Shown in pieces: positions 2,913 through 62,900 of a stretch of 64,000 bases of DNA (position 1 is the stretch's first letter; every line of letters begins with the position of its first letter). Location: the NCBI RefSeq assembly GCF_042453785.1, contig NC_091672.1, positions 2,609,001 to 2,673,000 of the forward strand, given 5' to 3'. Below the pieces are notes generated by a model that saw only the letters and a list, made by a program, of their open reading frames with translations, was not told the origin of the DNA and ran no database searches. The position numbers and the translations under genes were made by a program. The stretch comes from Malus domestica (taxonomy: Eukaryota > Streptophyta > Magnoliopsida > Rosales > Rosaceae).

Positions 2913-3987
2913 GTTCATAATCTTTATCAGAGACTTTCCAAGCGAAGGAAGCATCGGCAAACTTTTTTTCTAAGACATTTATTGCATATGTTTCAGTGTT
3001 ATATTTTGTTTTCATTAACTTTGATTTCGTCGTTAAACTACAATGAGTACTCTGTTGTTTTAGATGAATGCTTTTGGAAAATTTTGAAGGAAAGTCTTTT
3101 TCTCTAATGTCTAGTGGATGGTGAAAGGTTACAATTGGGATGAAAGAATTAGGGTTTTCAGAATATGCTTGTTTCTTTTCTTCACCTGTATTCCGAAAGC
3201 CATAATCCTTTCATCGTAATGGACCCAGTTGTAATGGGGACTTCGACGATGAATCTGGATGGAAGGTTTCTTTCGGTTGGGTTCCCGTTTGTTCAACCGA
3301 GTCCGGGAAATGCACTTTGAACGATTGGCGATGATCTTGCCTGATGATATTCCTTTGTTAACAATGTAGATTACCATATGTGGATTTACTTGTGGGATAA
3401 ACGCATCTTAAGCTGTCTTTGTATGGAGTCTACAAAAGCACTTTTGCAAACCTTTTGTTTCACCATGAATTGAAAGAAAGAAATTTGGCGAGTGCACTCG
3501 TCTACACTTGAATCCATAAGACAAACATGTAAATGCAAATATTAGTTTGCCGTTGTGGAGAGTCGAATATGAGACTTCCCACCGTAGTGCCAATTGGTAA
3601 CAATCAAATTCTAGGTCGTAATTGTTTTTTCGCTTTTTTTTTTATCGGATAGAAAATCAAACACGGGACATTGATTTTAAGAGCGAATGTTCTTAGCCAA
3701 CTGAGCTATAATGCACTTGCATACAACTTTGCAGTAAAGTCACCCACATCCAATCACATACCAAAGTCTTTGGTTGTTGGAACAAACTTTAGTGAAGTGA
3801 TTTCCGCACATCCATTTTCTTCGCCGCTATGCTCCTTCATTTTTCTCTGGTATTTGGGTTGAGTAAATCGAAGGAGAATCGAGGGGCGGAAATGAACAAA
3901 CCAGTGTAAATCACTTCGTTGAACTTTACAATTGCGATGGGATGAAACTCATTTCCAACTTCATTAACAGCTTGTAACGAGTAAAAG
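2913..3987. other. intergenic: RPL10A 3' UTR and unassigned DNA
   Basis: The first part must hold the RPL10A 3' UTR; no clear poly(A) signal was chosen. ORFs at 3129-3377 (-) and 3408-3593 (-) have no recognisable domain. A tRNA-like remnant at 3642-3716 is listed separately. Confidence 0.4.
3642..3716 (-). other. degenerate tRNA-Lys-like sequence
   Basis: On the minus strand TATAGCTCAGTTGGCTAAGA (box A-like) is followed by an anticodon-loop-like GCTCTTAAAAT and a weak box B (GTGTTTGATTT). The spacing matches a tRNA with a CTT anticodon. The acceptor stem does not pair well and the arms are degraded, so this looks like a tRNA pseudogene or the head of an old SINE, not a working tRNA. Confidence 0.35.
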
Positions 3988-22200: not shown

Positions 22201-22402
22201 TGCATTTCTAGTATCTTTCGGTTCTGTTCGCGCACAATTTGGACATCTAGGTTATTCTGGTTTCAGTTCTATGTGTGCACTATTTTGACATCTAGGTTAT
22301 TCTGGTTTATGTATTTTGAAAAATTCATTGCATAGGAGAGTTCAGCTCTTTAACTTCGAAAAAAACCGCGTTGTAAGTTATGAGTAGAAGCTATTATTTT
22401 TT

Positions 22403-22557
22403 AGGAAAACTAATGAAAAGGGCTTGAAAACTTTGAGTTTTAATGATAAGGACAAAATAAAGGGTAAAGTGAATAGTATCTGGATTGACTTTTTAGTGTA
22501 AAAATGTGGTTTTTCGTTAAAGTGAACAGTACCGGGTGCTTTTCGTTAAAGTTCCCT
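22403..22557 (+). mobile_element. 155-bp hAT-type MITE, copy 1
   Basis: Begins AGGAAAACTAATGAAAA and ends TTCGTTAAAGTTCCCT, imperfect terminal inverted repeats. The 8-bp duplication TATTTTTT flanks it (22395-22402 and 22558-22565). The same element, also exactly 155 bp, lies inverted at 37896-38050 with its own 8-bp duplication. Confidence 0.88.
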
Positions 22558-23845
22558 TATTTTTTTGGGTCAATGAAAATTTGCATCTGGATAATGCGCC
22601 GAAACAGAGTTTGGAGCCTTAAGATACAAATCAAGATTGGAGCCTTAAGATATAAAATTAAGCTCCGAGTTTGTCATGTATTACTTTTAGGCTATTTTTA
22701 TTCATGGTAGATGATTTCCATGCCTTTTCATTGGGGATAGGAAATGAAAATTTTCTCTATGTTTGTTAGTGATGGGAAGGAAACATAGTTTTTGGATATA
22801 ATAGGTAGGTTTTTTATAAACTAAAGTAATTAATGAATCTCCAATGGGATGCAAAAAACCTTGAAAGATGTATTTTTTAGTTGGCTAGAAATCTCTCCAA
22901 TGACGAGATGTAAAATATTCATTTTTGTTGGAAAATGTAAATAAAAACGTGTATCTTTATTTCCTAAATTTGCTACTTCATATACCATATTGGGATTGAG
23001 AGCCTTGACATGGCTACAATGCACAACTTGGGGTTGAGAGCCTTGACATGGCTACACTGCACAACTTGGCCTCATTGTGAGAAACTTTAACTCCGCTACA
23101 CAAAATACACGATTTAATTTTACATATTTGTACTTGGGAGTAATACTTATAATAACTCATTTATAACTGTAATCATCAAGTTTAAATGGATGAATAACTG
23201 TGGCAAATTTTAAATGGGTGAATAAATGTGGTTATATTTGCCGATGCAGAGTGGCAGCTACTTTAATCATCAAACTCATCATCAAAATCGATAAGCATGT
23301 ATTTATCATCACTTATAGCAATGATAACGTCTACTTTATATTGCACATATTAATTATACATTTTCAAAATAGAACGGTGCCCGTGAAATGTTAAATTAAT
23401 TTTAATTTCCTCCAAAATCTCATATACAACTTAACACTCTAACATTCATCAGTACACACATTCTCTCACATTTTATGGCACAACTAAGACCTTCATATCT
23501 TTTATAGCAAAAACCATGCAAATTTTTGTGAAGAGATGCATACAAAACTTGATCAATATGAATTGTCTTACGGGCAAGAATATTATGAAGATTTCTTTTT
23601 AAGCGTTATAAGCACTCCAAAAATATTGAGAAGAAAAAATTTGTACAAGAAAATGTAATAACATGCCACGAAGAGAATTTTCTGTGGCAACAATAATAAT
23701 TTTCTGTTTGTATCACTGTCAGGCTATCCAAGTGAAGCAATCATTCAATGGTAAAGAAGCTGAGAAAAAACAATTTTCATGAAATACTAGTTTTTTTTGT
23801 TGATAAGTGTGTTTATCGTGTCAAAACAGGGTTATTAAAGATGAA

Positions 23846-29389: not shown

Positions 29390-29740
29390 AGGAAGACTTG
29401 GATGTAGAATTTAAGGAAAGACATAGAGTACTTTAACTAACGGAAGACTTAGCGTAAAACCGAGCTCAATGGCATTCTATGATTTATCAGCCGACCTCAT
29501 TTAGTAAAATAAGGCTTTCTTCCTTCTTCTTTGTTGTTGGGGCTTGGTTGTGATTCTTGTGTACTACAGAGATGCATGAGACTAAGGTTTTGAATGACTT
29601 GCAGATTCTACGATTAGGATGCAACATACCAAATAGAGAACAGATTGAGAACTTCTATCAATACCGAGCGCAGTAATGTTTTAGGATTCATACAACCGAC
29701 CTCATTGAGTGAGATAAGGCTTTGTTGTTATTGTTGTATT
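29390..29740 (+). repeat. two degraded LINE 3' ends
   Basis: At about 29455-29550 (ACCGAGCTCAATGGCATTCT ... GCCGACCTCATTTAG ... CTTTGTTGTTG) and 29655-29738 (CGAGCGCAGTAATGTTTTAG ... CAACCGACCTCATTGAGTG ... GGCTTTGTTGTTATTG). Both match the 3' terminus of the RTE-type LINE seen at 54385-54482, but are more diverged. They are 5'-truncated dead copies of a related subfamily. Confidence 0.65.
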
Positions 29741-37620: not shown

Positions 37621-37895
37621 GGGGGTAATTGTTTGTGTTGGTAGTTTCGGGGTTCTGGCCTAGTGACGATGGTAGTCCCTGGTGAAAGTGTTGATGGTGG
37701 CAATGACATTGTTAAGAGGGGTAGGGTGGAGGTGGTGGAAGTTGGCGGAGCCAATGCTAAGCAATGGTAGTGGCGGTAGAAATAATGACAATGATGATGA
37801 TGGTAGTGAAGATGAATTTTTGTTTCTAAACTCCATTTTAGAATCCCTTGATAAATATTTTAGTGGTAGTTTAAGTTTGAAAACAAATTATAATA

Positions 37896-38050
37896 AGGGA
37901 ACTTTAACGAAAAACATCCGGTACTGTTCACTTTAACGAAAAACCACATTTTTACACTAAAAAGTCAATCATGGTACTATTCACTTTACCATTTATTTTG
38001 TCCTTATCATTAAAACTCAAAGTTTTCAAATCATTTTCATTAATTTTCCT
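37896..38050 (-). mobile_element. 155-bp hAT-type MITE, copy 2
   Basis: Inverted relative to the copy at 22403-22557 and of equal length. It begins AGGGAACTTTAACGAAAA and ends TTAATTTTCCT, with the 8-bp duplication TTATAATA at 37888-37895 and 38051-38058. Confidence 0.88.
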
Positions 38051-38576
38051 TTATAATAATTGACGGTAAATTTACGAGAAGATTTAAATTTAAAATATTT
38101 ACGGTGTCCGTGTCACTACTGGGAAGGAACTTCATATCTTTTCTAATATTGAAATATGAAAATATGATTCGATCATTTTTTTACATAAGTTGATACGTTT
38201 CTGCTTCAACTTAGAGAGATGATTACTAACTTTTTATATAATAAAAAGGGAAGAGCTTTGACCATATTCAATAATTAAATTTGTTTATTATAAATTAACA
38301 AAGAGAAGATAAAGATTGCTTAGTAGACCACAATAGCTAGATAGTGAAACTGCGAAAAAGAAACCTTGGAACTTTTATTATATTCTAAATGGAAAAATCT
38401 TTCTTCTATAAACATTAATAAAGAAGTGAAAATGGAAATCTATCCTAAGCACTGACGATACATACCCACAGTTTTAATATCCCTCAACTTGTATATCTCT
38501 TCGTGTTGAAAAGAACATTTCTTTAATAGGTGTGCTATTTCACTTTTTCAATTCATTTGATCTGATAATCAGAAGT

Positions 38577-47921: not shown

Positions 47922-47967
<46 letters not shown>

Positions 47968-50900
47968 AAGTGAAACTCCGCCTATGTAAGTTTATCTTAC
48001 ATGGCCGGTTCCAAGCCCGGGTAAAGGAGGAGGGGGAGGGCGTCAGGTAGTCGACAGCCGGCACTCCACAGTTACGTCGAATCCTTATGAAAATGAATTC
48101 AGAACGAAATCGCGCTAAAGCTAGGGCGTCACCCGTAAGTGGCGCGCTGTGTGGCCCGAGCACAGTGATAAGTGAGCAAGGGTCGCTGTATCTCCATAGG
48201 CACTCGGATGCAGTGTTAAATGAGCAAGGGGGCCATAGAAACTTCTTTTCGAACGACTCCACTCAAAGTTGTTTGGGAGCATATGCACCTATCAACTTTA
48301 CACGGGACACACAAAAGAAGTACTTTGATTCCATTAGACGGGGGAGGGTGAAGAAGCTAGGACAGAAGGGTAGAGTTCAGGAGAGTAGAATGCGTTTAGG
48401 AACGTGGAATATAGGAACCTTAACGGGAAAATCTATGGAAGTAGTGGAAGTTATGGTGAGGAGAAGGATAAATATTATGTGCCTACAAGAAACTAAGTGG
48501 GTTGGTCTTAAGGCAAAGGATCTAGAAAACTCAGGGTTTAAACTTTGGTACTCGGGCACAAATAGAACGAGAAACGGTGTTGGCATCATCGTGGACAAGA
48601 CCTTGACACAAGATGTTGTAGATGTCAAGAGGGTAGGAGATAGAATCATGGCAATCATGATTGTAATAGGACAAGAACTTATCAATGTGATTAGTGCGTA
48701 CGCACCTCAAGTAGGGTTGGATATGAGTTCGAAGGAGAAATTTTGGGAAGACCTTGGAGACTTGGTGCAAGGAATTGCTCAGACGGAGAAGTTATTTATA
48801 GGAGGAGATTTAAATGGACACGTGGGCAGGGAGACAGGCAACTATGGAGGTTTTCATGGTGGCCATGGTTTTGGGGAGAGAAACGAGGATGGGGAAGCTA
48901 TCTTGGATTTTGCAATGGCATCGCCTAAGCCGATCAAAGACAGAATATATGGAGTGCAAGTTCAGTGCAGATGGAGGCCAAAACGAGTTAGGGGTGAGGA
49001 TCGGAGATCAAGAAATACCAAAGAGCGACCGTTTTCGTTACCTAGGATCTATCTTGCAAAAGAACGGAGAATTAGATGGAGATCTCAACCATAGAATACA
49101 AGCTGGATGGATGAAGTGGAAGAGTGCATCTGGCGTGTTGTGTGACCGTCGTATGCCACTGAAGCTCAAGGGAAAATTTTATAAGATGGCAATAAGGCCG
49201 GCGATGCTGTATGGCACAGAATGTTGGGCGGTGAAGCATCAACACGTACACAAAATGGGTGTAGCGGAGATGAGGATGCTTCGTTGGATGTGTGGGCACA
49301 CGAGAAAGGATAAGATTAGGAATGAGGATATCCGGGGTAAAGTAGGAGTAGCCGAAATTGAAGGAAAGATGAGAGAAAATCGGTTACGGTGGTTTGGACA
49401 TGTGCAAAGAAGGCCTACTGACGCTCCGATTAGAAGATGCGACTATGGGACAGAGGTTCAGGGCCGAAGGGGTAGAGGAAGACCTAGGAAAACTTTGGAA
49501 GAGACTCTAAGAAAAGACTTAGAGTACTTGGATCTAACGAAGGACATGACACAGGACCGAGCACAATGGCGTTCTAAGATTCATATAGCCGATCCCACTC
49601 AGTGACTTGGATTTTCCAAGTCTCCAACCGAGAAGTTTTCCTCACTCGAAAAATTAAGGGAACACTACCCCAACCTACATGCTCCACTCAGAAAGCTTCA
49701 ACATACAAGCTTCAACAAAAGAAAATTCAAAGAACTTAGCGAAGAAGGCTTTGGTGTATTTAACACAATACGTTGAAATGAAGGAAAACTTATTTATTGA
49801 TATCCCCGATAAGCTACAAATATGTACATATACATGAGTCAAAATAAACAAACAAGATGGAGCCTTCACAAAGGTTGCTTAGGAGAAGTCTCAGCAGTCG
49901 GTAGAGCCCCAGAAAGAGAAGGCATCGGAGGGGGATCATTCGGAGCCTCAGTACTGGACAGAACCCTAGAAGGAGGAGGCATCAGAGGTTGATCATTTGG
50001 AGCTTCATTACGCGGTACAGCCCCAGAAGACGAAGGCAATAAATGCCTTTGGAACAAACCCACAAATCTCTGATGATCAAGTAAAACCTGACCATCAGTT
50101 TCCTTCATCTGGTCAAGCTTCCTCTTCATGTTTGTAGCATAGTCATGTGCGAGCCGGTGCAACTGTTTATTCTCATGCTTGAGCCCTCTAATCTCCTGTT
50201 TGAGACTCATCACTTCAGCCGCCAATGATTCAACTTGGCGGGTTCGAGCAAATAGGCGTTGGGCCATATTAGACACAGAACCTGCACACTGAACACTGAG
50301 AGCCAGTGAATCCTTAACAGCTAACTCATCAGACCGTTTGGAAAGTAGTCTGTTATCTTTGGGAGTGAGAAGGTTCCTGGCCACCACCGCAGCGGTCATA
50401 TCATTCTTCATCACGGAATCCCCAACGGTAAGAGGACCAGTAGGGGAGACGAAGGATGGGCGCCATATGTTGTCTGGAGAAGGCGGGGCTGCCTCTTCAA
50501 CAAGGTTCAAGTCAAAACGACGGTCGGAGGGGCCAGACATTTTCAAAGGTATTGAAGAGAGAAGAGGTCAGACAAATCAAGATCTTAGAAGTGCAAGAAT
50601 GGAGCTTCTACTGGTGGAGATTCAAGTGTGCTTTGGAACTTAATGCCAGCCCCTATAAAAAGCTGCACTCGACGGAGCTTCAGACATCGAAGAGGCGCCT
50701 GCTCAGAAATCGAAGAGGCGTTTGCTTTCTCAAAAGCTGGGCTGCTTAGAAACCACGAGGGTTGATCTCATAAATCGAAGAGGTGTTTGCTTTCTCAAAA
50801 GTTGGGCTGCTCAAAGACCACGAAAGCCGATCTCAGAAATCGAAGAGAAGCTCGCTTCCTCAAAAGCTGGGCTCCTCAGAGACCACGAGGGCCGATCTTA

Positions 50901-53900
50901 GAAATCGAAGAGGCACCTACTTTTCCAGCCTTGTCAGCACCTGTCACACGCACACTCAGCTTTGCGGAAATTATGGGTATTCTGTCGAAGACTTCTGGGG
51001 AAGTAGAAAACACATGAATCTTACTGTCCAATCACCCACTTCCCACACGCAGCAATAGCTCATGGGTACCACAGATAACTTTGCCAAAGTTCTCTGCCAA
51101 AGTTGAGCACGTGAAGCTTGCAGCTCCCACTACATCGCTCTGACCAAGAAGGGTAAAAGAATAGCAAAGAAACAGAACTAACAAAGTTTAGACCCATAAA
51201 TTTTGAAGGTCTAGCTACCATATTATTACCCACAAGGGTAAATGAACAGTACCACTGTTGGATAATTGGAAAGTCCCTGTGTGTCAACCTCTGTGCCTCG
51301 TGGCAAGGTAGACTAGCAAACATGCCCAACCTTTACTCACATTCGAGAAAACACTCCCAATAAGATTGCTTGCTCCAAAATCGAAGAGGCACCGTCCTCC
51401 GAATCTCGAGAGCCAGACTCCCAACATGACTACTTTCTCAAAAATCGAAGAAAGGGTAAAGGAACAGTACCATTGCTGGATAATTGGAAAGTCCCTGTGT
51501 GTCAACCTCTGTGCTTCGTGGCAAGGTAGACTAGCAAACATGCCCAACCTTTACTCACATTCGAGAAAACACTCCCAACAAGATTGCTTGCTCCAAAATC
51601 GAAGAGGCACCGCCCTCCGAATCTCGAGAGCCAGACTCCCAACATGATTACTTTCTCAAAAATCGAAGAGACACTGCTCCCCGAATCTCGAGAGCCAGAC
51701 CCCCAGCATGATTGCTTTCTCAAAAATCGAAGAGGCATCGTTCTCCGAATCAATCGAAGAGGCGCTCACTTTCTCAAAAGCTGGGCTGCTCAGAGACCAC
51801 GAGGGCCGATCTCAGAAATCGAAGAGGCACCGTCTTTTCTAGCCTTGTCAGCACCTGTCACACGCACACTCAGCTTTGCGGAAATTATGGGCATTCTGTC
51901 GAAGACTTCTGGTGAAGTAGAAAGCACATGAATCTTACTGTTCAATCACCCACTTCCCACACGCAACAATAGCTCATGGGTACCACAGATAACTTTGTCA
52001 AAGTCTCTGCCAAAGTTGAGCACGTGAAGCTTGCAGCTCCCACTACATCGCTCTGACCAAGAAAGGTAAAAGAATAGCAAAGAAACAGCACTAACAAAGT
52101 TTAGACACATAAATTTTGAAGGTCTAGCTACCATATTATTACCCACAAGGGTAAAGGAACAGTACCACTGCTGGATAATTGGAAAGTCCCTGTGTGTCAA
52201 CCTCCGTGCTTCGTGGCAAGGTAGACTAGCAAACATGCCCAACCTTTACTCACATCCGAGAAAACACTCCCAACAAGATTGGTTACTCCAAAATCGAAGA
52301 GGCACCGCCTTCCGAATCTCGAGAGCCAGACTCTCAACATGATTACTTTCTCAAAAATCAAAGAGACACTGCTCCCCGAATCTCGAGAGCCAGACCCCCA
52401 CCATGATTGCTTTCTTAAAAATCGAAGAAGGATTGTTCTCCGAATCTCGAGAGCCAGATACCACATACCACTTTTTCAAAGTGGTCTGACAGAGTTAAAA
52501 CATGTGAAGCTGGCAGCTCCCACTACCGTGCTATGACCAAGCAGGGTAAAGGAATAGCATTACTACTTGTTGTTAGGGAGACTCCTATATATGTCGACCT
52601 CCATCCCCAACGGACAGGCAGACCTGCAAAAATGCTCAACCCTTCCTCATATCTGAGAGGGCACTCCCAACGAAGCCTTTCAAAATATTCAGCTTTCTTT
52701 CCCCCCGATAATACCTCTGCAAACAAGCTATACTAGAGCAAGAATATCTCATATCATCAGGGTTAAAAGCAAGAGTATCCCATATCATGCTTTTTCCCTG
52801 TCTTTTCCTTTGGCCTTGTTTTTACCTGCAAGACAAGGAGAAAGTGAGCAATCAGTCAGCACTTGAAATCAAGCTCCCAGCCAGGAACTGACAGCCTGGA
52901 ACCCCTTACCTGATTACTTACCTGACATTGCTCTCGAGTACTCATCTTCAACATCTTATGTTGCCAGGGAAGATACCGCATCTGCTTGAGGAACAGATAG
53001 GGCAAGTGCGAAGGATACAAGGAAGCATGTGGAGACAAGCGTAACAGCACACGTGCCGATCCATCCATTACTCTGTCAAAAGCAAAAGTATCCCATATCA
53101 GCAGGGTCGAACGTACTCTAAATTTGATGGACTTGTTTTGACCCTCAAATTCTTCAGTCGGCCTTATACTCTGGAGGAAACCAGAAAACCCTCCAGCTCA
53201 GTTCAAGAATAAGCCTGTGGAAAGTTACTTCTTCAAAAGCAAAAGTATCCCATATCATCTCTTCTCATTTTTCTTCTCTTTATCCTTCATGCTGCTGCAA
53301 AATGGGGAGAAGGTGAACAATCAGCCGGAGCTCTGATTGCTTACCTTGTCTGTCACCTCTTTCAGCAAATCCCCTAGCTCGGCGACTTGGGGGACTCCTA
53401 CTACATGGTTTGTATCGCGCTTGACCAAGCCTGAAACTACAAGTAAGCTTCAAGTGAAATTGATACATTACCTTGTGCATCTCCACCAGTTAAAGATACC
53501 ACCCCTGGATGGAGGACGAGTACTTCCAGAGAAGCTGGCACATCTACCTATGAGACAGATAAGGCAAGTCAAGATGATACCACACTCCGATACTTAGAAG
53601 TTTCGTGATTACGAGATCATTCTCCCACAATATTTCCTAATGTCATTTGTACTCTAATGTCATTTGTACTAAATCATTCACTTGTACTCACTAAAGGAGA
53701 GCTTGAACCTAAGTACTTGTGTAAACCCTTCACAATTAATGAGAACTCTTCTATTCCGTGGACGTAGCCAATCTGGGTGAACCACGTACATCTTGTGTTT
53801 GCTTTCCTATCTCTATCCATTTATATACTTATCCACACTAATGACCGGAGCAATTTAGCGAAGATCACAAAAAGTGACCGTTTTCGCTACCTAGGATCTA

Positions 53901-56900
53901 TCTTACAAGAGAACGGAGAATTAGATGGAGATCTCAACCATAGAATACGAGCTGGATGGATGAAGTGTAAGAGTGCATCCAGCATGTTGTGTGACCGTCG
54001 TAGGCCACTGAAGCTCAAGGGAAAATTTTATAAGATGGCAATAAGGCCAGCGATGTTGTATGGCACAGAATGTTGGGCGGTGAAACATCAACACGTACAC
54101 AAAATGGGTGTAGCAGAGATGAGGATGCTTCGTGGGATGTGTGGGCACACGAGAAAGGATAAGATTGAGAATGAGGATATCCGAGGTAAAGTAGGAGTAG
54201 CCGAAATTGAAGGAAAGATGAGAGAAAATCGGTTCCGGTGATTTGGACATGTGCAAAGAAGGCCGACTGACGCTCCGGTTCGAAGATGTGACTACGGGAC
54301 AGAGGTTCAGGGCCGAAGGGGTAGAGGAAGACCTAGGAAAACTTTGGAAGAGACTCTAAGAAAAGGCTTAGAGTACTTGGATCTAACGGAGGACATGACA
54401 CAAAACCGAGCGCAATGGCGTTCTAGGATTCATATAGCCGACCCCACTTAGTGGGAAAAGGCTTTGTTGTTGTTGTTGTTGTATATGATCTCTTCTTAGC
54501 CAACACCTTCTTTAAGAAGAGAGAAGAACATGTGATCACCTACAAGAGTGGGTCGTCAAAAACACAAATAGATTTTCTTCTAATGAGGAAAGGGGATCGT
54601 ATAACTTGTAAGGATTGCAAAGTTATACCAGGATAGAGCGTGGCTAATCAACATCGCTTGTTGGTGATGGATGTACATATCAAAAGAGTGAGAAAAAAGA
54701 ACAAGACTTGGAAGTGCCCAAGGACTAGATGGTGGAATCTAAAAGAAGAAAAACAAGTCATTTTCAAAGAGAAAGTAATCACCCAGTGTGTGTGGGATAG
54801 AGAGGGGGAAGTTAGCCAAATGTGGGATTCCATGGCTAGTTGTATTCGAAAAGTAGCAAAAGAGGTGTTAGGAGAGTCTAAGGGCTTTGCCCCACACCAA
54901 AAGGAATCTTGGTGGTGGAATGAGGAGGTACAAACAAAGGTGAAGGCTAAGAAGGAATGTTGTAAAGCCTTATACAAGGATAGGACCGATGAAAATGGTG
55001 AAAGGTATAGAAAAGCGAAGCAAGAGGCGAAGAAAGCTGTGAGAGAAGCTAAGTTAGCGGCTTATGACGATATGTATAAGCGACTAGATACCAAAGAAGG
55101 AGAGTTGGATATCTATAAACTAGCTAGAGCAAGGGAAAAGAAGACAAGAGACCTAAACCAAGTGAGGTGCATCAAGGATGAGGATGGAAAGGTTCTTGCT
55201 ACAGAGAACGCGGTTAAAGATAGATGGAGAGGTTATTTTCATAATCTTTTCAATGAAGGACATGAAAGGAGTGCTTCTTTAGGGGAGTTGAGTAACTCAG
55301 AAGAGTGTAGAAACTACTCTTTTTATCGTCGAATCCGGAAGGAAGAAGTGGTTGTAGCTTTGAAGAAGATGAAGCATAGAAAAGCAGTAGGCCCAGACGA
55401 TATACCAATCGAAGTGTGGAAAGTTTTGGGAAGGACAGGTATAACATGGCTCACTGACCTTTTCAATAGGATTTTGAAAACGAAGAAGATGCCAAATGAG
55501 TGGCGAACGAGCACTTTGGTGCCTATCTACAAGAATAAGGGCGACGTACAAAATTGCATGAACTATAGGGGTATTAAGCTAATGAGTCATACAATGAAGC
55601 TCTGGAAGAGAGTCATTGAGCATAGATTGAGGCAAGAGACACGGGTTTCGGACAACCAATTCGGGTTCATGCCAGGGCGCTCAACCATGGAGGCAATCTA
55701 TCTCTTACGAAGATTGATGGAAAGATATAGAGATGGGAAAAAGGATTTACACATGGTCTTTATAGATTTGGAAAAAGCGTATGATAGGGTCCCAAGATAC
55801 ATTCTTTGGAGGATTTTAGAGAAGAAAGGAGTACGAGTAGCATATATCCAAGTTATAAAGGATATGTATGAAGGAGCAAAGACTGCCGTAAGAACTCATG
55901 TAGGACAAACCGAAAGCTTTCCCATAACTGTAGGATTACATCAAGGCTCATCCTTAAGTCCTTACCTTTTTGCGTTGGTAATGGATGAGTTAACATGACA
56001 TATTCAAGATGATATTCCTTGGTGTATGCTTTTCGCAGACGATATAGTGTTGGTAGATGAAACTCAGGAAGGGGTAAATGCAAAGCTTAACCTTTGGAGA
56101 GAAGTGTTGGAATCTAAAGGTCTTCGCCTAAGCCGATCAAAGACAGAATATATGGAGTGCAAGTTCAGTGCAAATGGAGGCCAAAACGAGTTAGGGGTGA
56201 GGATCGGAGATCAAGAAATACCAAAGAGCGATCGTTTTCGTTACCTAGGATCTATCTTGCAAAAGAACGGAGAATTAGATGGAGATCTCAACCATAGAAT
56301 ACAAGCTGGATGGATGAAGTGGAAGAGTGCATCCGGCGTGTTGTGTGACCGCCGTATGCCACTGAAGCTCAAGGGAAAATTTTATAGGACGGCAATAAGG
56401 CCGGCGATGCTGTATGGCACAGAATGTTGGGCGGTGAAGCATCAACATGTACACAAAATGGGTGTAGCGGAGATGAGGATGCTTTGTTGGATGTGTGGGC
56501 ACACAAGAAAGGATAAGATTAGGAATGAGGATATCCGGGGTAAAGTAGGAGTAGCCGAAATTGAAGGAAAGATGAGAGAAAATCGGTTACGGTGGTTTGG
56601 ACATGTGCAAAGAAGGCCTACTGACGCTCCGATTAGAAGATGCGACTATGGGACAGAGGTTCAGAGCCGAAGGGGTAGAGGAAGACCTAGGAAAACTTTG
56701 GAAGAAACTCTAAGAAAAGACTTAGAGTACTTGGATCTAACGGAGGACATGACATAGGACCGAGCACAATGGCGTTCAAAGATTCATATAGCCGATCCCA
56801 CTCAGTGACTTGGATTTTCCAAGTCTCCAACCGAGAAGTTTTCCTCACTCGGGAAATTAAGGGAATACTACCTCAACCTACATGCTCCACTCACAAAGCT

Positions 56901-59900
56901 TCAACATACAAGCTTCAACAAAAGAAAATTCAGAGAACTTAGCGAAGAAGGCTTTGGTGTATTCAACACAATACGTTGAAATGAAGGAAAGCTATTTATT
57001 GATATCCCCGATAAGTCACAAATATGTACATATACATGAGTCAAAATAAACAAACAAGAGGGAGCCTTCACAAAGGTTGCTTAGGAGAAGTCTCAGCAGT
57101 CGGTAGAGCCCCAGAAAGAGCTGGCACGGGAGGGGGATCATTTGGAGCCTCAGTACTGGACAGAACCCTAGAAGGAGGAGGCAGCAGAGGTTGATCATTT
57201 GGAGCTTCATTACGCGGTACAGCCCCAGAAGACGAAGGCAATAAATGCCTTTGGAACAAACCCACAAATCTCTGATGATCAAGTAAAACCTGACCATCAG
57301 ATTCCTTCATCTGGTCAAGCTTCCTCTTCATGTTTGTAGCATAGTCATGTGCGAGCCGGTGCAACTGTTTATTCTCATGCTTGAGCCCTCTAATCTTCTG
57401 TTTGAGACTCATCACTTCAGCCGCCAATGATTCAACTTGGCGGGTTCGAGCAAATAGGCGTTGGGCCATGTTAGACACAGAACCTGCACACTGAACACTG
57501 AGAGCCAGAGAATCCTTAACAGCCAACTCATCAGACCGTTTGGAAAGTAGTCTGCTATCTTTGGGAGTGAGAAGGTTCCTGGCCACTACCGCAGCGGTCA
57601 TATCATTCTTTATCACGGAATCCCCAACAGTAAGAGGACCAGTAGGGGAGACGAAGGATGGGCGCCATATGTTGTCTGGAGAAGGCGTGGCTGCCTCTTC
57701 AACAAGGTTCAAGTCAAAACGACGGTCGGAGGGGCTAGACATTTTCAAAGGTGTTGAAGAGAGAAGAGGTCGGACAAATCAAGATCTTAGAAGTGCAAGA
57801 ATGGAGCTTCTACTGGTGGAGATTCAAGTGTGCTTTGGAACTTAATGCCAGCCTCTATAAAAATCTGCACTCGACGGAGCTTCAGAAATCGAAGAGGCGT
57901 TTGCTTTCTCAAAAGCTGGGCTGCTCAGAGACCACGAGACGTTTGCTTTCTCAAAAGTTGGGCTGCTCAAAGACCACGAAGGCCGATTTCAGAAATCGAA
58001 GAGGCGCTTGCTTTCTCAAAAGCTGGGCTGCTCAGAGACCACGAGGGCCGATCTCAGAAATCGAAGAGGCACCTACTTTTCCAGCCTTGTCAGCACCTGT
58101 CAGCTTTGCGGAAATTATGGGCATTATGTCGAAGATTTCTGGTGAAGTAGAAAGCACATGAATCTTACTGTTCAATCACCCACTTCCCACACGCAACATT
58201 AGCTCATGGGAACCACAGATAACTTTGCCAAAGTTCTCTGACAAAGTTGAGACACGTGAAGCTTGCAGCTCCCATTACACCGCTCTAACCAAGAAGGGTA
58301 AAAGAATAGCAAAGAAACAGCACTAACAAAGTTTAGACACATAAATTTTGAAGGTCTAGCTACCATATTATTACCCACAAGGGTAAAGGAACAGTACCAC
58401 TGCTGGATAATTGGAAAGTCCCTGTGTGTCAACCTCTGTGCTTCGTGGCAAGATAGACTAGCAAACATGCCCAACCTTTTCTCACATTCGAGAAAACACT
58501 CCCAACAAGATTGCTTGCTCCAAAATCGAAGAGGCACCGCCCTCCGAATCTCGAGAGCCAGACTCCCAACATGATTACTTTCTCAAAAATCGAAGAGACA
58601 CCGCTCTTCGAATCTCGAGAGCCAGACCCCTAGCAGGATGGCTTTCTCAAAAATCGAAAAGGCATCGTTCTTCGAACCTCGAAAGCCAGATCTCCGACAG
58701 GATTGCTTGTTCGAAAACTGAAGAGGCACCACTTTCCCAACTTCAAGAGCCGGATCTCCTTGGATAAAGCTTGTCTGTAATCTTTACACGCAACATCAGC
58801 TTTCTAGATACTATAGACCACTTTTTCAAAGTGCTCTGACAAAGTTAAAACATGTGAAGCTGGCAGCTCCCACTACCGTGTTATGACCAAGAAGGGTAAA
58901 GGAATAGCATTACTACTTGTTGTTAGGGAGACTCCTATATATGTTGACCTCCATCCCCAACAGACAGGCAGACCTGCAAAAATGCTCAACCCTTCCTCAT
59001 ATCTGAGAGGGCACTCCCAAAGAAGCCTTTCGAAATATTCAGCTTTCTTTCCCCCCGATAATACCTTTACAAACAAGCTATACTAGAGCAAGAATATCTC
59101 ATATCATCAGGGTTAAAAGCAAGAGTATCCCATATCATGTTTTTTCCCTGTCTTTTCCTTTGGCCTTGTTCTTACCTACAAGACAAGGAGAAAGAGAGCA
59201 ATGAGTCAGCACTTGGAATCAAGCTTCCAGTTAGGAACTGACTGCCTGGAACCCCTTACTTGATTACTTACCTGACATTGCTCTCGAGTACTCATCTTCA
59301 ACATCTTATGCTTCCAGGGAAGATACCGCATCTGCCTGAGGAACATATAGGGCAAGTGAGAAGGATACAAGGAAGCATGTGGAGACAAGCGTAACAGCAC
59401 ACGTGCCGATACATCCACTACTCTGTCAAAAGCAAAAGTATCCCATATCAGCAGGGTCGAACGTACTATAGATTTGATGGACTTGTTTTGACCCTCAAAT
59501 TCTTCAGTCGGCCTTATACTCTGGAGGAAACCAGAACACCCTCCAGCCCAGTTCAAGAATAAGCCTGTGGAAAGTTACTTCTTCAAAAGCAAAAGTATCC
59601 CATATCATCTCTTCTCATTTTTCTTCTCTTTATCCTTCATGCTGCCTGCAAGATAGGGAGAATGTGAACAATCAGCCGGAACTCGAAATCAAAGTTCTGA
59701 TCTGGGACTGATTGCTTGGAGCTCTGATTGCTTACCTTGTCTGTCACCTCTTTCAGCAGATCCCCTAGCTCGGCGACTTGGAGGACTCCTACTACATGGT
59801 TTGTATCGCGCTTGACCAAGCATGAAACTACAAGTAAGCTTCAAGTGAAATTGATACATTACCTTGTGCATCTCCACCAGTTAAAGATACCACCCCTGGA

Positions 59901-62900
59901 TGGAGGAAGAGTACTTCCAGAGAAGATGCCACATCTACCTACGAGACAGATAAGGCAAGTCAAGACGATACCATACTCCGGAACTTAGAAGTTTCGTGAT
60001 TACGAGATCATTCTCCCACAATATTTCCTAATGTCATTTGTACTAAATCATTCACTTGTACTCACTAAAAGAGAGCTTGAACCTATGTACTTGTGTAAAC
60101 CCTTCACAATTAATGAGAACTCCTCTATTTCGTGGACGTAGCCAATATGGATGAACCACGTACATCTAGTGTTTGCTTTCCTATCTCTATCCATTTATAT
60201 ACTTATCCACATTAATGACCGGAGCAATCTAGCGACGATCACAAAAAGCGACCGTTTTCGCTACCTAGGATCTATCTTGCAAGAGAACGGAGAATTAGAT
60301 GGAGATCTCAACCATAGAATACAAGCTGGATGGATGAAGTGTAAGAGTGCATCCGGCGTGTTGTGTGATCGTCGTAGGTCACTGAAGCTCAAGGGAAAAT
60401 TTTATAGGACGGTAATAAGGCCAGCGATGTTGTATGGCACAAAATGTTGGGCGGTGAAGCATCAACACTTACACAAAATGGGTGTAGCGGAGATAAGGAT
60501 GCTTCGTGGGATGCTTCGTGGGATGTGTGGGCACACGAGAAAGGAGAAGATTGTGAATGAGGATATCCGAGGTAAAGTAGGAGTAGCTGAAGTTGAAGGA
60601 AAGATGAGAGAAAATCGGTTACGGTGGTTTGGACATGTGCAAAGAAGGCCTACTGACGCTTCGGTTCGAAGATGTGACTACGGAACAGAGGTTCAGGGCC
60701 AAAGGGGTAGAGGAAGACCTAGGAAAACTTTGGAAGAGACCCTAAGAAAAGACTTAGAGTACTTGGATCTAACGGAGGACATGACATAGGACCGAGCGCA
60801 ATGGCGTTCTAGGATTCATATAGCCGACCCCACTTAGTGGGAAAAGGATTTGTTGTTGTTGTTGTATATATAGGGAAGTGATTTTCACACACCCTTTTTA
60901 GTTTTCTCACGCACCTCTCTTTATTTATGGCCATGGTTGAATGAATCAAACGGAATCAGTGGCTAGGATTAAACAAGGGTGTGTAAGAGGCTAAAAAGGG
61001 TGTGTGAAATTCACTTCCCGTATCCATATGAAAGGTCCTTTTTTATTTTTTTCCGTAGTATTCTCTGTATGACTTGAGTCCATACACATGATATCATTAC
61101 TGCACTGTCCCATTTAATCCAGTGCATCATCATTCTGTGATGGGTATAATGTTGAAATCTGTGGTTACGAATAGGTTAGGTGTTTAGGTTGCTTTTAGGC
61201 ATTTAGTTTTAGCCATATTGATATTGAGTAGTGTAATTTGGGATCAGGCTATTGACATTCTGTTTCATCCAAGATAAACACTTTTTGAGCTTCATTGCTA
61301 CCTGGCCAATTAAGGGATCCTCTAATTGTCAAGATTTTGATTAAATATGTGCATCAATGGCTCTTAAGGTCATCAATGTGCTTTTCAATTGATTATTATG
61401 TATTTTGATGAATACCGTTACATGTTCTTTCTTTATTTATGAATTGACATTTTATGTATGTATAGGTTAGGGAAATTGTTGCAGTATTGGACCTCGATGT
61501 TCTGTTTTATCCTTGCCCACAAGGTGGTCCAAACTTTCGTCGCAAGGTTGCTGAGATGGGCGGAAAACAGCAGTTCCCTTACATGGTTAGATACTGTACT
61601 CTTTAAATTATTGTTTTCCTTTTTATCATCGCAGTCAGGGGGGCGTTTGTCCTTGAGAGGGATGTAATGTAAATAATCCTTAATAATGGTAGACTTTATA
61701 ATTTGATTAAAAAGAAAGCAGAATTTTTAAAGTATTAATGTAGTGCTTAGCAGCTCCAATGTATTAGCAATAAGATGGATCAAGTTGCTTTCTCTGTCTT
61801 TCATGAAATATCTATAGCAAAACTCTCCAATTTTTCGTGTACTCACTTTTGAGATTATTGCTTGTTGCCATTGTGTCATTACGAACCTGTGGCCATTCCT
61901 GGAGGTGTAAAATTTTAGCTATGTTTGGACGATTTAGTGCTGTTTTGAAGACTTTTTGTTTAAGAATCTCATAGGCAAATTTCCAAGAGAAGGGAATTTG
62001 CAGATATTTAGAATAAAAAAGGAAACCTAATAGATAATAAGTGCTATATATAAACATTAGAACCTTTTGAAAATATAGCTAAATGATTCCGTCAACTAAA
62101 GAACATTTGAAAAACACAAAGCTAACACTTAAGTTTCTCCTCGGCTATGATGATAAGAATCTTTCACACACAACGAAATATTAATAGCTCTCATAGTTTT
62201 TACTTCTCCGCATCATTCACTAGTTTTGTTTTTATGCCTGTTGTTACATATACCTTAGTTTCATCTCATTATCATATCACAATGGCTTTGAGTGGCAGCT
62301 ACATTGCAATTTTTGTGTTTGGTCGCAGGTGGATCCAAACACTGGAGTTTCAATGTATGAATCAGATGACATAATCAAGTACTTGGTTGGGAAATATGGT
62401 GCGTGTGGTCACACTCATCTTGCTACAATCACGTTATTTCATTATGTTTATTGTATTACCTTCATCTTACAGTGTATGCAGACATGATAGGGGATAGATA
62501 CATAATACAACTGCACTATGACGTTTGGGTACATTTTTATACGTTAAGTTTATGGTAACTATTTGTTATGGAAGCAGTATACCTAGGCTCTACAAATTAT
62601 GCTTCTATATCGCGATGCATTTTCTCTTTTTATTTCTTTGCTTTTTACAGAAGCTACACTTTCTTGAATAAGAGCTTCTACTAACTATATTATTCATTCA
62701 TGCCAACCATTTAACACCAAATTCTTTTTAAAATTTCTTACCCCCGGTCCCCCAAATGTTTGTGCAGGTGATGGAACTGTTCCTCTTGCATTGTCACTTG
62801 GTTTGTTAACGGTTAGCATTTGACTCGTCTCAAATTTTCTTTTTATCTTTAGAAAGTATATTTTTAATTAATTATTCTGGTTGTAAAATTGTTGTTTTTA

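Follow-up and report, generated by a model that had tools for sequence, protein, structure and literature searches.

A mobile, probably RTE-type LINE of apple carrying an LTR-retroelement fragment and a second LINE 3' end

SVA of apes is a non-autonomous composite retroposon that contains an LTR-derived segment and is mobilised by LINE machinery, and in LINE 3' transduction a LINE takes along the sequence downstream of it, up to a second 3' end. Retropseudogenes and non-autonomous composites are the known forms of chimera that LINE enzymes make. In Magnaporthe, MINE and a tripartite chimera are products of LINE activity in which other RNAs became fused to the LINE, with duplications of 10-20 bp on either side; as described, the LINE part is truncated, the foreign RNA lies 5' of it, and such fusions arise repeatedly (PMC2104539). 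According to a review (PMC3747384), every RTE-clade LINE of flowering plants in its table has (TTG)n or (TTGATG)n at its end. Among open-licence papers in PMC, no description was found of a LINE-LTR element such as the one reported here from apple. With a probability of roughly 0.8, this element is a mobile, probably autonomous RTE-type LINE whose 3' UTR has given way to 4.3 kb of an LTR retrotransposon and, behind this, the 3' end from a second copy of a LINE.

Layout and nesting of two copies at the apple locus

The window, i.e., the whole 64,000-nucleotide stretch of apple DNA that was analysed, contained two sets of segments in the order given by the original prediction: LINE sequence up to HIADPTQ, a segment X, LINE sequence again from SDRFRYLG, and a (TTG)n tail (Table 1). 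The LINE 3' end before X is labelled c and the second one, after X, is labelled e. Together they form direct repeats of about 570-590 bp on either side of X, with a mean divergence of 6.8% within a copy.

The two blocks had been taken for independent copies, but one proved to be nested in the other. LINE endonuclease sequence ended at 48921 and the next LINE bases started at 54483, while in other copies both ends are joined without a gap (GGCATATGATC). The 17-nt sequence TATATATAGGGAAGTGA occurred exactly twice in the window, on either side of the whole structure. The window therefore holds an older outer copy (47974-60864) with a younger inner copy (48922-54482) inside it. Tandem duplication of the blocks was ruled out, as the 17-nt duplication encloses both. 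The outer copy begins with AACTCCGCCTATGTA, as do other full-length copies. The inner copy is 5'-truncated, its target-site duplication is at most 2 bp, and its c segment runs to HIADPTQ, with the stop codon TGA at 49603-49605.

Table 1. Positions of the nested chimeric copies and their parts in the window
Feature	Position	Strand	Remarks
Outer chimera, target-site duplication, left	47957..47973	+	17 nt, TATATATAGGGAAGTGA
Outer copy, LINE 5' part, endonuclease domain PF03372	47974..48921	+	start AACTCCGCCTATGTA, E 3e-10
Inner (nested) copy, LINE 3' end c (5'-truncated), up to HIADPTQ	48922..49604	+	
Inner copy, LINE/LTR joint, microhomology ACT[C/T]AGTG	49597..49604	+	common to LINE 3' end and stand-alone LTR element
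Inner copy, X, LTR-element segment	49605..53868	+	914-bp internal duplication, 64-65-bp tandem repeats
Open frame of 233 codons in X, antisense to LINE	49866..50567	-	no Pfam/PDB match
Inner copy, e (second LINE 3' end) and its (TTG)n tail	53869..54482	+	
Outer copy, continued after the inner copy, reverse transcriptase domain PF00078 and c (LINE 3' end)	54483..56807	+	E 1.5e-23
Outer copy, X, shorter, without the 914-bp duplication	56808..60242	+	
Outer copy, e (second LINE 3' end) and its (TTG)n tail	60243..60864	+	
Outer chimera, target-site duplication, right	60865..60881	+	17 nt

Dispersal, insertion marks and the LINE gene

Searches of the host genome with up to three mismatches yielded 3,586 sites for the LINE-X junction and 2,472 sites for the X-LINE junction of the window type, spread across contigs among the matches listed, so the chimera is not restricted to this locus. 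Reversed-pattern controls gave no match for either junction. The left junction showed 100% identity over 201 bp in all 40 scored places (out of 1,323 candidates), which, together with the empty controls, excludes chance.

Twenty copies were fetched from places with a perfect left junction and accordingly represent the youngest and cleanest members; 19 of them had the order c-X-e-(TTG)n. Matching flanks of 13-20 nt were found around 10 of 19 copies, while mismatched pairs of flanks (n = 342) reached a maximum of 10 nt. Among copies with an intact 5' start, eight of nine had duplications above this control, and the ninth had an exact match of 10 nt. In the same comparison, no duplication above the control was present in 8 of the 19 copies, every one of them 5'-truncated. 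The point of truncation was variable and many fetched copies were affected, and divergence between copies was only 0.5-1%. Given the shared junctions, the distinct target-site duplications around the whole chimera at independent loci, the 5' truncation, the (TTG)n tails and the low divergence, the chimera was moved as a whole by LINE-type retrotransposition. The prediction of a mobile family copied as a unit was thereby borne out.

Endonuclease (PF03372) and reverse transcriptase (PF00078) domains, both above the cut-off, were located in a single frame, and 6 of 8 full-length copies retained an open frame of 1,052-1,057 codons, unlike an SVA-like non-autonomous composite, which has no reverse transcriptase gene of its own. 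The gene survives because X sits 3' of its stop codon. Values of dN and dS were 0.0043 and 0.0143, respectively, for 10 pairs among five open copies, and 0.0050 and 0.0173 for 19 of 20 c segments. In-frame stops were present in all 23 e pieces examined, as expected for a non-coding tail. The LINE is probably of RTE type, judging from its (TTG)n tail and its motifs; the PDB matches of the protein (polymerase entry 8c8j, L1 ORF2p and R2) do not settle the clade. The microsatellite 3' tail, the variable 5' truncation and the target-site duplications around 10 of 19 copies, as noted above, also agree with an RTE-type LINE.

Source of X, proposed history of its joints and rival origins

The predicted LTR-retroelement nature of X was supported. 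Sequence of the X family occurred without LINE sequence at two loci (L035 and L036), and its terminus GATTTTGTGCATCAACA, with the LTR-type end CAACA, was followed by differing bases at 268 sites (up to two mismatches). Given that the family is also found by itself and has an LTR-type end at varied sites, X is a fragment of an LTR retroelement that exists independently. The 5-bp duplications of an LTR element were not found around L035 and L036 within the fetched stretches, where the left ends were not located. X contained no pol-like frame of at least 120 codons, and its antisense frame had no Pfam match; X thus lacks a gag-pol region and is a piece, not a full LTR element.

X-e as a separate, older mobile family was considered and rejected, as CTTGG followed a base other than A at just four exact sites. 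Three of these (L029, L031 and L032) were X-e without LINE, with a 15-nt duplication at L032, and the fourth (L030) was a chimera with a point change. The three therefore look like rare 5' truncations at this position, although it is unexpected that all three fall on one base.

At the left LINE-X joint, the LINE and the LTR element have 8-10 nt of microhomology in common (CCACTTAGTG / ACTCAGTG). The original prediction had offered, as one explanation, a template switch from the LINE 3' end to X RNA and a second jump back to LINE RNA. A switch at the left joint is likely, although a microhomology deletion at the DNA level would look the same. The jump back was not upheld: an older form of the right joint, with the exact LTR end on LINE sequence (CAACA directly followed by ATCCTTAAG), was present at 392 sites and was read in L034, L037 and L038, and the right-hand LINE piece is longer in such older copies, beginning exactly at the LTR end (L034, L038). 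An intermediate deletion form occurred at 165 sites and was read in L033. The second LINE piece had been read as the element's 3' end of about 570 bp, present a second time. Since older copies keep the exact LTR end against LINE, the window right joint appears instead to be a later deletion form, and the 570-bp repeat a deletion remnant of a longer second LINE piece. Recent identical duplication of c and e was ruled out, the two falling into separate clades of the c/e tree in addition to their divergence; in this tree, the L033 piece labelled e is really c.

The older right joint points to an LTR element once inserted into a LINE, in which case a single fusion, at the left joint, is enough and two template jumps are not needed. 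An LTR element would have inserted into the reverse transcriptase frame of one LINE copy (LINE 1). The LTR with the LINE-1 3' half would then have joined the 3' end of a different copy (LINE 2) at the microhomology, most likely through a template switch while the LINE reverse transcriptase copied the LTR-LINE-1 transcript. The fusion would have multiplied, and deletions across the LTR/LINE-1 joint would have shortened e, giving successive subfamilies, the latest being the recent burst. The gene for the LINE protein lies ahead of X; transcription would pass across X as far as e, and the (TTG)n terminus of e would be the start for target-primed reverse transcription. No site (up to three mismatches, with an artificially joined 65-mer as query) held a c-type LINE end followed by a LINE tail of its own, without X.

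A possible, though less favoured, origin is at the DNA level: LINE 2 inserted near an LTR sitting in LINE 1, a microhomology deletion removed the LINE 2 tail and part of the LTR, and transcription reached the LINE 1 3' end, as in 3' transduction, without a template switch. The exact LTR end against LINE in L034 and L038 and the left-joint microhomology are both accounted for in this way, and the later right-hand joints are also short-homology deletions; the scheme nevertheless requires two related LINE insertions of the same orientation around one LTR and a deletion landing at the LINE 2 stop codon. No founder locus was found: the search for the LINE-1 5' half beside the LTR insertion gave 9 sites, compared with 5 for the control, and not one was convincing. 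The formation of both junctions in one event, from LINE RNA 3' end to X RNA and back to LINE RNA, is unlikely. It fits the left microhomology and has a precedent in the fungal tripartite chimera with 14-bp duplications, which has been ascribed to double template switching (PMC2104539). The window right joint, however, is late, and the older, longer LINE piece starts at the LTR terminus at 392 sites. Transcripts of LTR elements do not end at this terminus.

A local origin, through tandem or segmental duplication, recombination or an assembly error, could be suggested by the two adjoining copies of the window and by five older-form copies about 32 kb apart on one contig; given thousands of scattered sites that have the same junctions and differ in their target-site duplications, and the nesting of the window pair, such an origin is refuted for the chimera family. 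Movement by LTR machinery, with the LINE as a passenger in an LTR element, has a negligible probability. Despite the LTR derivation of X, it is contradicted by the insertion marks, as the unit has (TTG)n tails and truncated 5' ends, with no LTR at its left end and no 5-bp duplications. A further reading, rather unlikely, is that of an autonomous LINE-LTR hybrid that benefits from the captured LTR piece (e.g., through promoter or terminator signals or the antisense frame) and for this reason took the place of the plain LINE from which it came, as the principal active RTE lineage of the genome.

Significance and comparison with known systems

The apple family has thousands of copies, recent members included, and combines a complete LINE gene with a 3' UTR of 4.3 kb derived from an LTR element. 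It provides a natural test of the 3' needs of plant RTE elements, since they tolerate an additional 4.3 kb separating the stop codon from the terminus. The dated series of junction forms (392, 165 and 2,472 sites) makes the birth and trimming of a new transposon subfamily traceable. Repeat annotation may record a unit of this kind as a LINE plus a separate LTR fragment.

The chimera resembles plant RTE-clade LINEs in its single endonuclease-reverse transcriptase frame, (TTG)n tail and 5' truncation. Their 3' UTR is normally about a dozen bases long (GGGAAAAGGCT, also seen in e), whereas here the stop codon is followed by the LTR piece and a second 3' end. In contrast to the Magnaporthe chimeras, the foreign piece lies 3' of a complete LINE gene and one junction has been inherited by thousands of copies. 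With SVA it shares an LTR-derived part in a LINE-mobilised composite, but the apple unit retains its LINE gene. As in LINE 3' transduction, downstream sequence is carried up to a second 3' end; here, the carried piece comes from an LTR element, and a large family shares the second 3' end, which is itself LINE-derived.

Layout of the chimera in the window

Re-analysis of the window bore out the predicted order of RTE-type LINE sequence, LTR-element segment (X), and LINE sequence again, referred to here as c-X-e-(TTG)n, with c the LINE end before X and e the second LINE 3′ end after it. In Pfam searches, the LINE matched endonuclease (PF03372, E 3e-10) and reverse transcriptase (RT; PF00078, E 1.5e-23) domains. 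The two blocks of the original prediction, however, proved to be one outer copy with an inner copy inserted in it, as the LINE frame ends at 48921 and continues at 54483, and an identical 17-nt sequence stands directly before and directly after the outer copy, with no third occurrence in the window. The inner copy starts within the LINE, and its duplication is at most 2 bp. A tree built from the 3′ ends grouped the inner e with the young copies and set the outer e apart on a long branch outside them, which fits insertion of a younger copy into an older one.

Coordinates of features in the window
Feature	Position	Remark
Outer copy	47974-60864	
Inner copy	48922-54482	5′-truncated, nested in outer copy
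Stop TGA of c, inner copy	49603-49605	c terminates HIADPTQ; then X, then e with (TTG)n
Open frame in X, inner copy	49866-50567	minus strand, opposite to LINE
Open frame in X, outer copy	57068-57778	minus strand, opposite to LINE
Part of X, inner copy	50838-52400	914-bp internal duplication
Corresponding part of X, outer copy	57982-58700	duplication absent
Stretch similar to e	29659-29704	46 bases, 80% identical to last part of e
169-bp repeat	22393-22561	inverted pair, 92% identical
169-bp repeat	37892-38060	inverted pair, 92% identical

X also holds 64-65-bp tandem repeats. The 46-base stretch may be the remnant of an old LINE, or else a SINE whose tail is of the RTE type. The 169-bp repeat is MITE-like and was also found at two fetched loci (L017 and L022).

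Dispersal and the LINE gene

The host genome (651,096,769 bases, 19 contigs) was searched with the junction sequences, as originally proposed, and thousands of matches were obtained. The 36-base left-junction (LINE-X) pattern occurred at 3,586 sites (≤3 mismatches), a count that could include stand-alone LTR copies closer than the two sampled, which have four mismatches and so fall outside it, and that at least one old chimera (L033, six mismatches) escapes. The 33-base right-junction (X-LINE) pattern in its window form occurred at 2,472 sites (≤3 mismatches); both reversed-pattern controls gave 0. At 40 of 40 scored places (1,323 candidates), the left junction was 100% identical over 201 bp.

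For 20 of these 40 places, 10 kb each was fetched, and c-X-e-(TTG)n was present in 19; in L019, X was incomplete within the fetched stretch, a right junction lying about 2.7 kb further on. A common 5′ sequence begins nine copies, including L023, where an internal deletion has brought late RT next to the 5′ end, and the remaining copies start at scattered points. Full-length copies (n = 8) measured about 8.0-8.2 kb. The (TTG)n tail of L021 has about 68 units, those of other copies about 5-10.

Distinct target-site duplications and (TTG)n tails had been named as marks of a mobile chimera. Tails were found in 19 copies and duplications in 10 of the 19, with longest flank matches of 13-20 nt (a few including tail letters) against a maximum of 10 nt in 342 mismatched pairs. 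Among copies with the common 5′ start, eight of nine reached at least 13 nt and the ninth had 10 nt exact; in eight truncated copies the match was 4-9 nt, not above the control.

The normal LINE frame closes at TAG (CCC ACT TAG, as read in e), and the chimera reads CCC ACT CAG TGA at the same point. Stand-alone LTR sequences have ACTCAGTGA or ACTTAGTGA there; the present stop of the chimera thus includes letters of LTR type, and X is not part of the frame. The frame was open over 1,052-1,057 codons in six of the eight full-length copies. In a copy sample biased toward young copies, pairwise divergence was 0.50% in RT (14 copies), 0.77% in c (20 copies), 0.63% in one part of X (20 copies) and 0.72% in another (19 copies), and 1.00% in e (19 copies), and dN/dS was about 0.30 for the LINE gene in five copies picked because open and about 0.29 for c segments (19/20). 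In-frame stops were present in all 23 e pieces examined. This pattern is consistent with a LINE protein under selection and with an e that is not selected for coding. The predicted mobile LINE/LTR chimera family is real, dispersed, and recently amplified, with a surviving LINE gene.

Identity of X and forms of its joints

The terminus ...GTCCTCACTGATTTTGTGCATCAACA with varying bases after it was found at 268 sites (≤2 mismatches), two of which (L035 and L036) carry about 4 kb of X-family sequence and no LINE. X therefore represents the 3′ portion of an element of LTR type, in agreement with the LTR-retroelement segment first proposed. The left LTR end of this element and a 5-bp duplication were sought at both loci and were not found within the fetched stretches. 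The antisense frame of X had no Pfam or PDB match; with dN of 0.0059 versus dS of 0.0094 (120 pairs, 16 copies), it shows no clear constraint.

X right ends without e after them numbered 3,191 (pattern, ≤2 mismatches). Two of these sites, L033 and L034, are older chimeras with a longer right-hand LINE piece; in L034, X extends to ...TTTTGTGTATCAACA and the LINE restarts with ATCCGTAAGTCC, a point within RT (GSSLSPYLF). The joint of LINE to the exact LTR terminus (CAACA|ATCCTTAAG) occurred at 392 sites (≤3 mismatches) and a first form shortened by deletion, the L033 type, at 165, compared with 2,472 for the window form. The old right joint is accompanied by the left joint in L038; L037 has kept it and lost the left joint through an internal deletion, which fuses LINE RT straight to the middle of X. 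A LINE 5′ half adjoining the LTR was not found in the genome search (9 sites versus 5 in the control), so it is solely the right joint that points to a founder in which an LTR element would have sat in a LINE.

The left-joint sequences are CCCACTTAGTGGG in the LINE, GACCACTTAGTGACTTGG and GACTACTCAGTGACTTGG in the stand-alone LTR copies L035 and L036, respectively, and CCCACTCAGTGACTTGG in the chimeras, giving microhomology of 10 nt with L035 and 7/8 with L036. The template switching originally suggested would leave such a trace, but microhomology deletion in DNA predicts the same one, and the joint is consistent with either.

Five older-form junctions lie on contig C4 at about 7.26-7.39 Mb, spaced by about 32 kb in one orientation, arising either from tandem repetition in the genome or from duplication in the assembly. 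X-e units without LINE were seen at L029, L031, and L032 (the last with a 15-nt duplication), all three being putative truncations that start at the same base of X.

Relation to known elements

No description of a LINE/LTR chimera like that of the window was found among open-licence PMC papers. Fungal LINE-made chimeras are treated in PMC2104539, plant RTE tails in PMC3747384, and the apple repeat HODOR in both PMC13334179 and PMC6901071. LINE-made chimeras as a kind are already known; what is new, as far as open-licence PMC searches go, is a large family in which a complete LINE has a 3′ UTR of LTR origin and a second 3′ end from a LINE.
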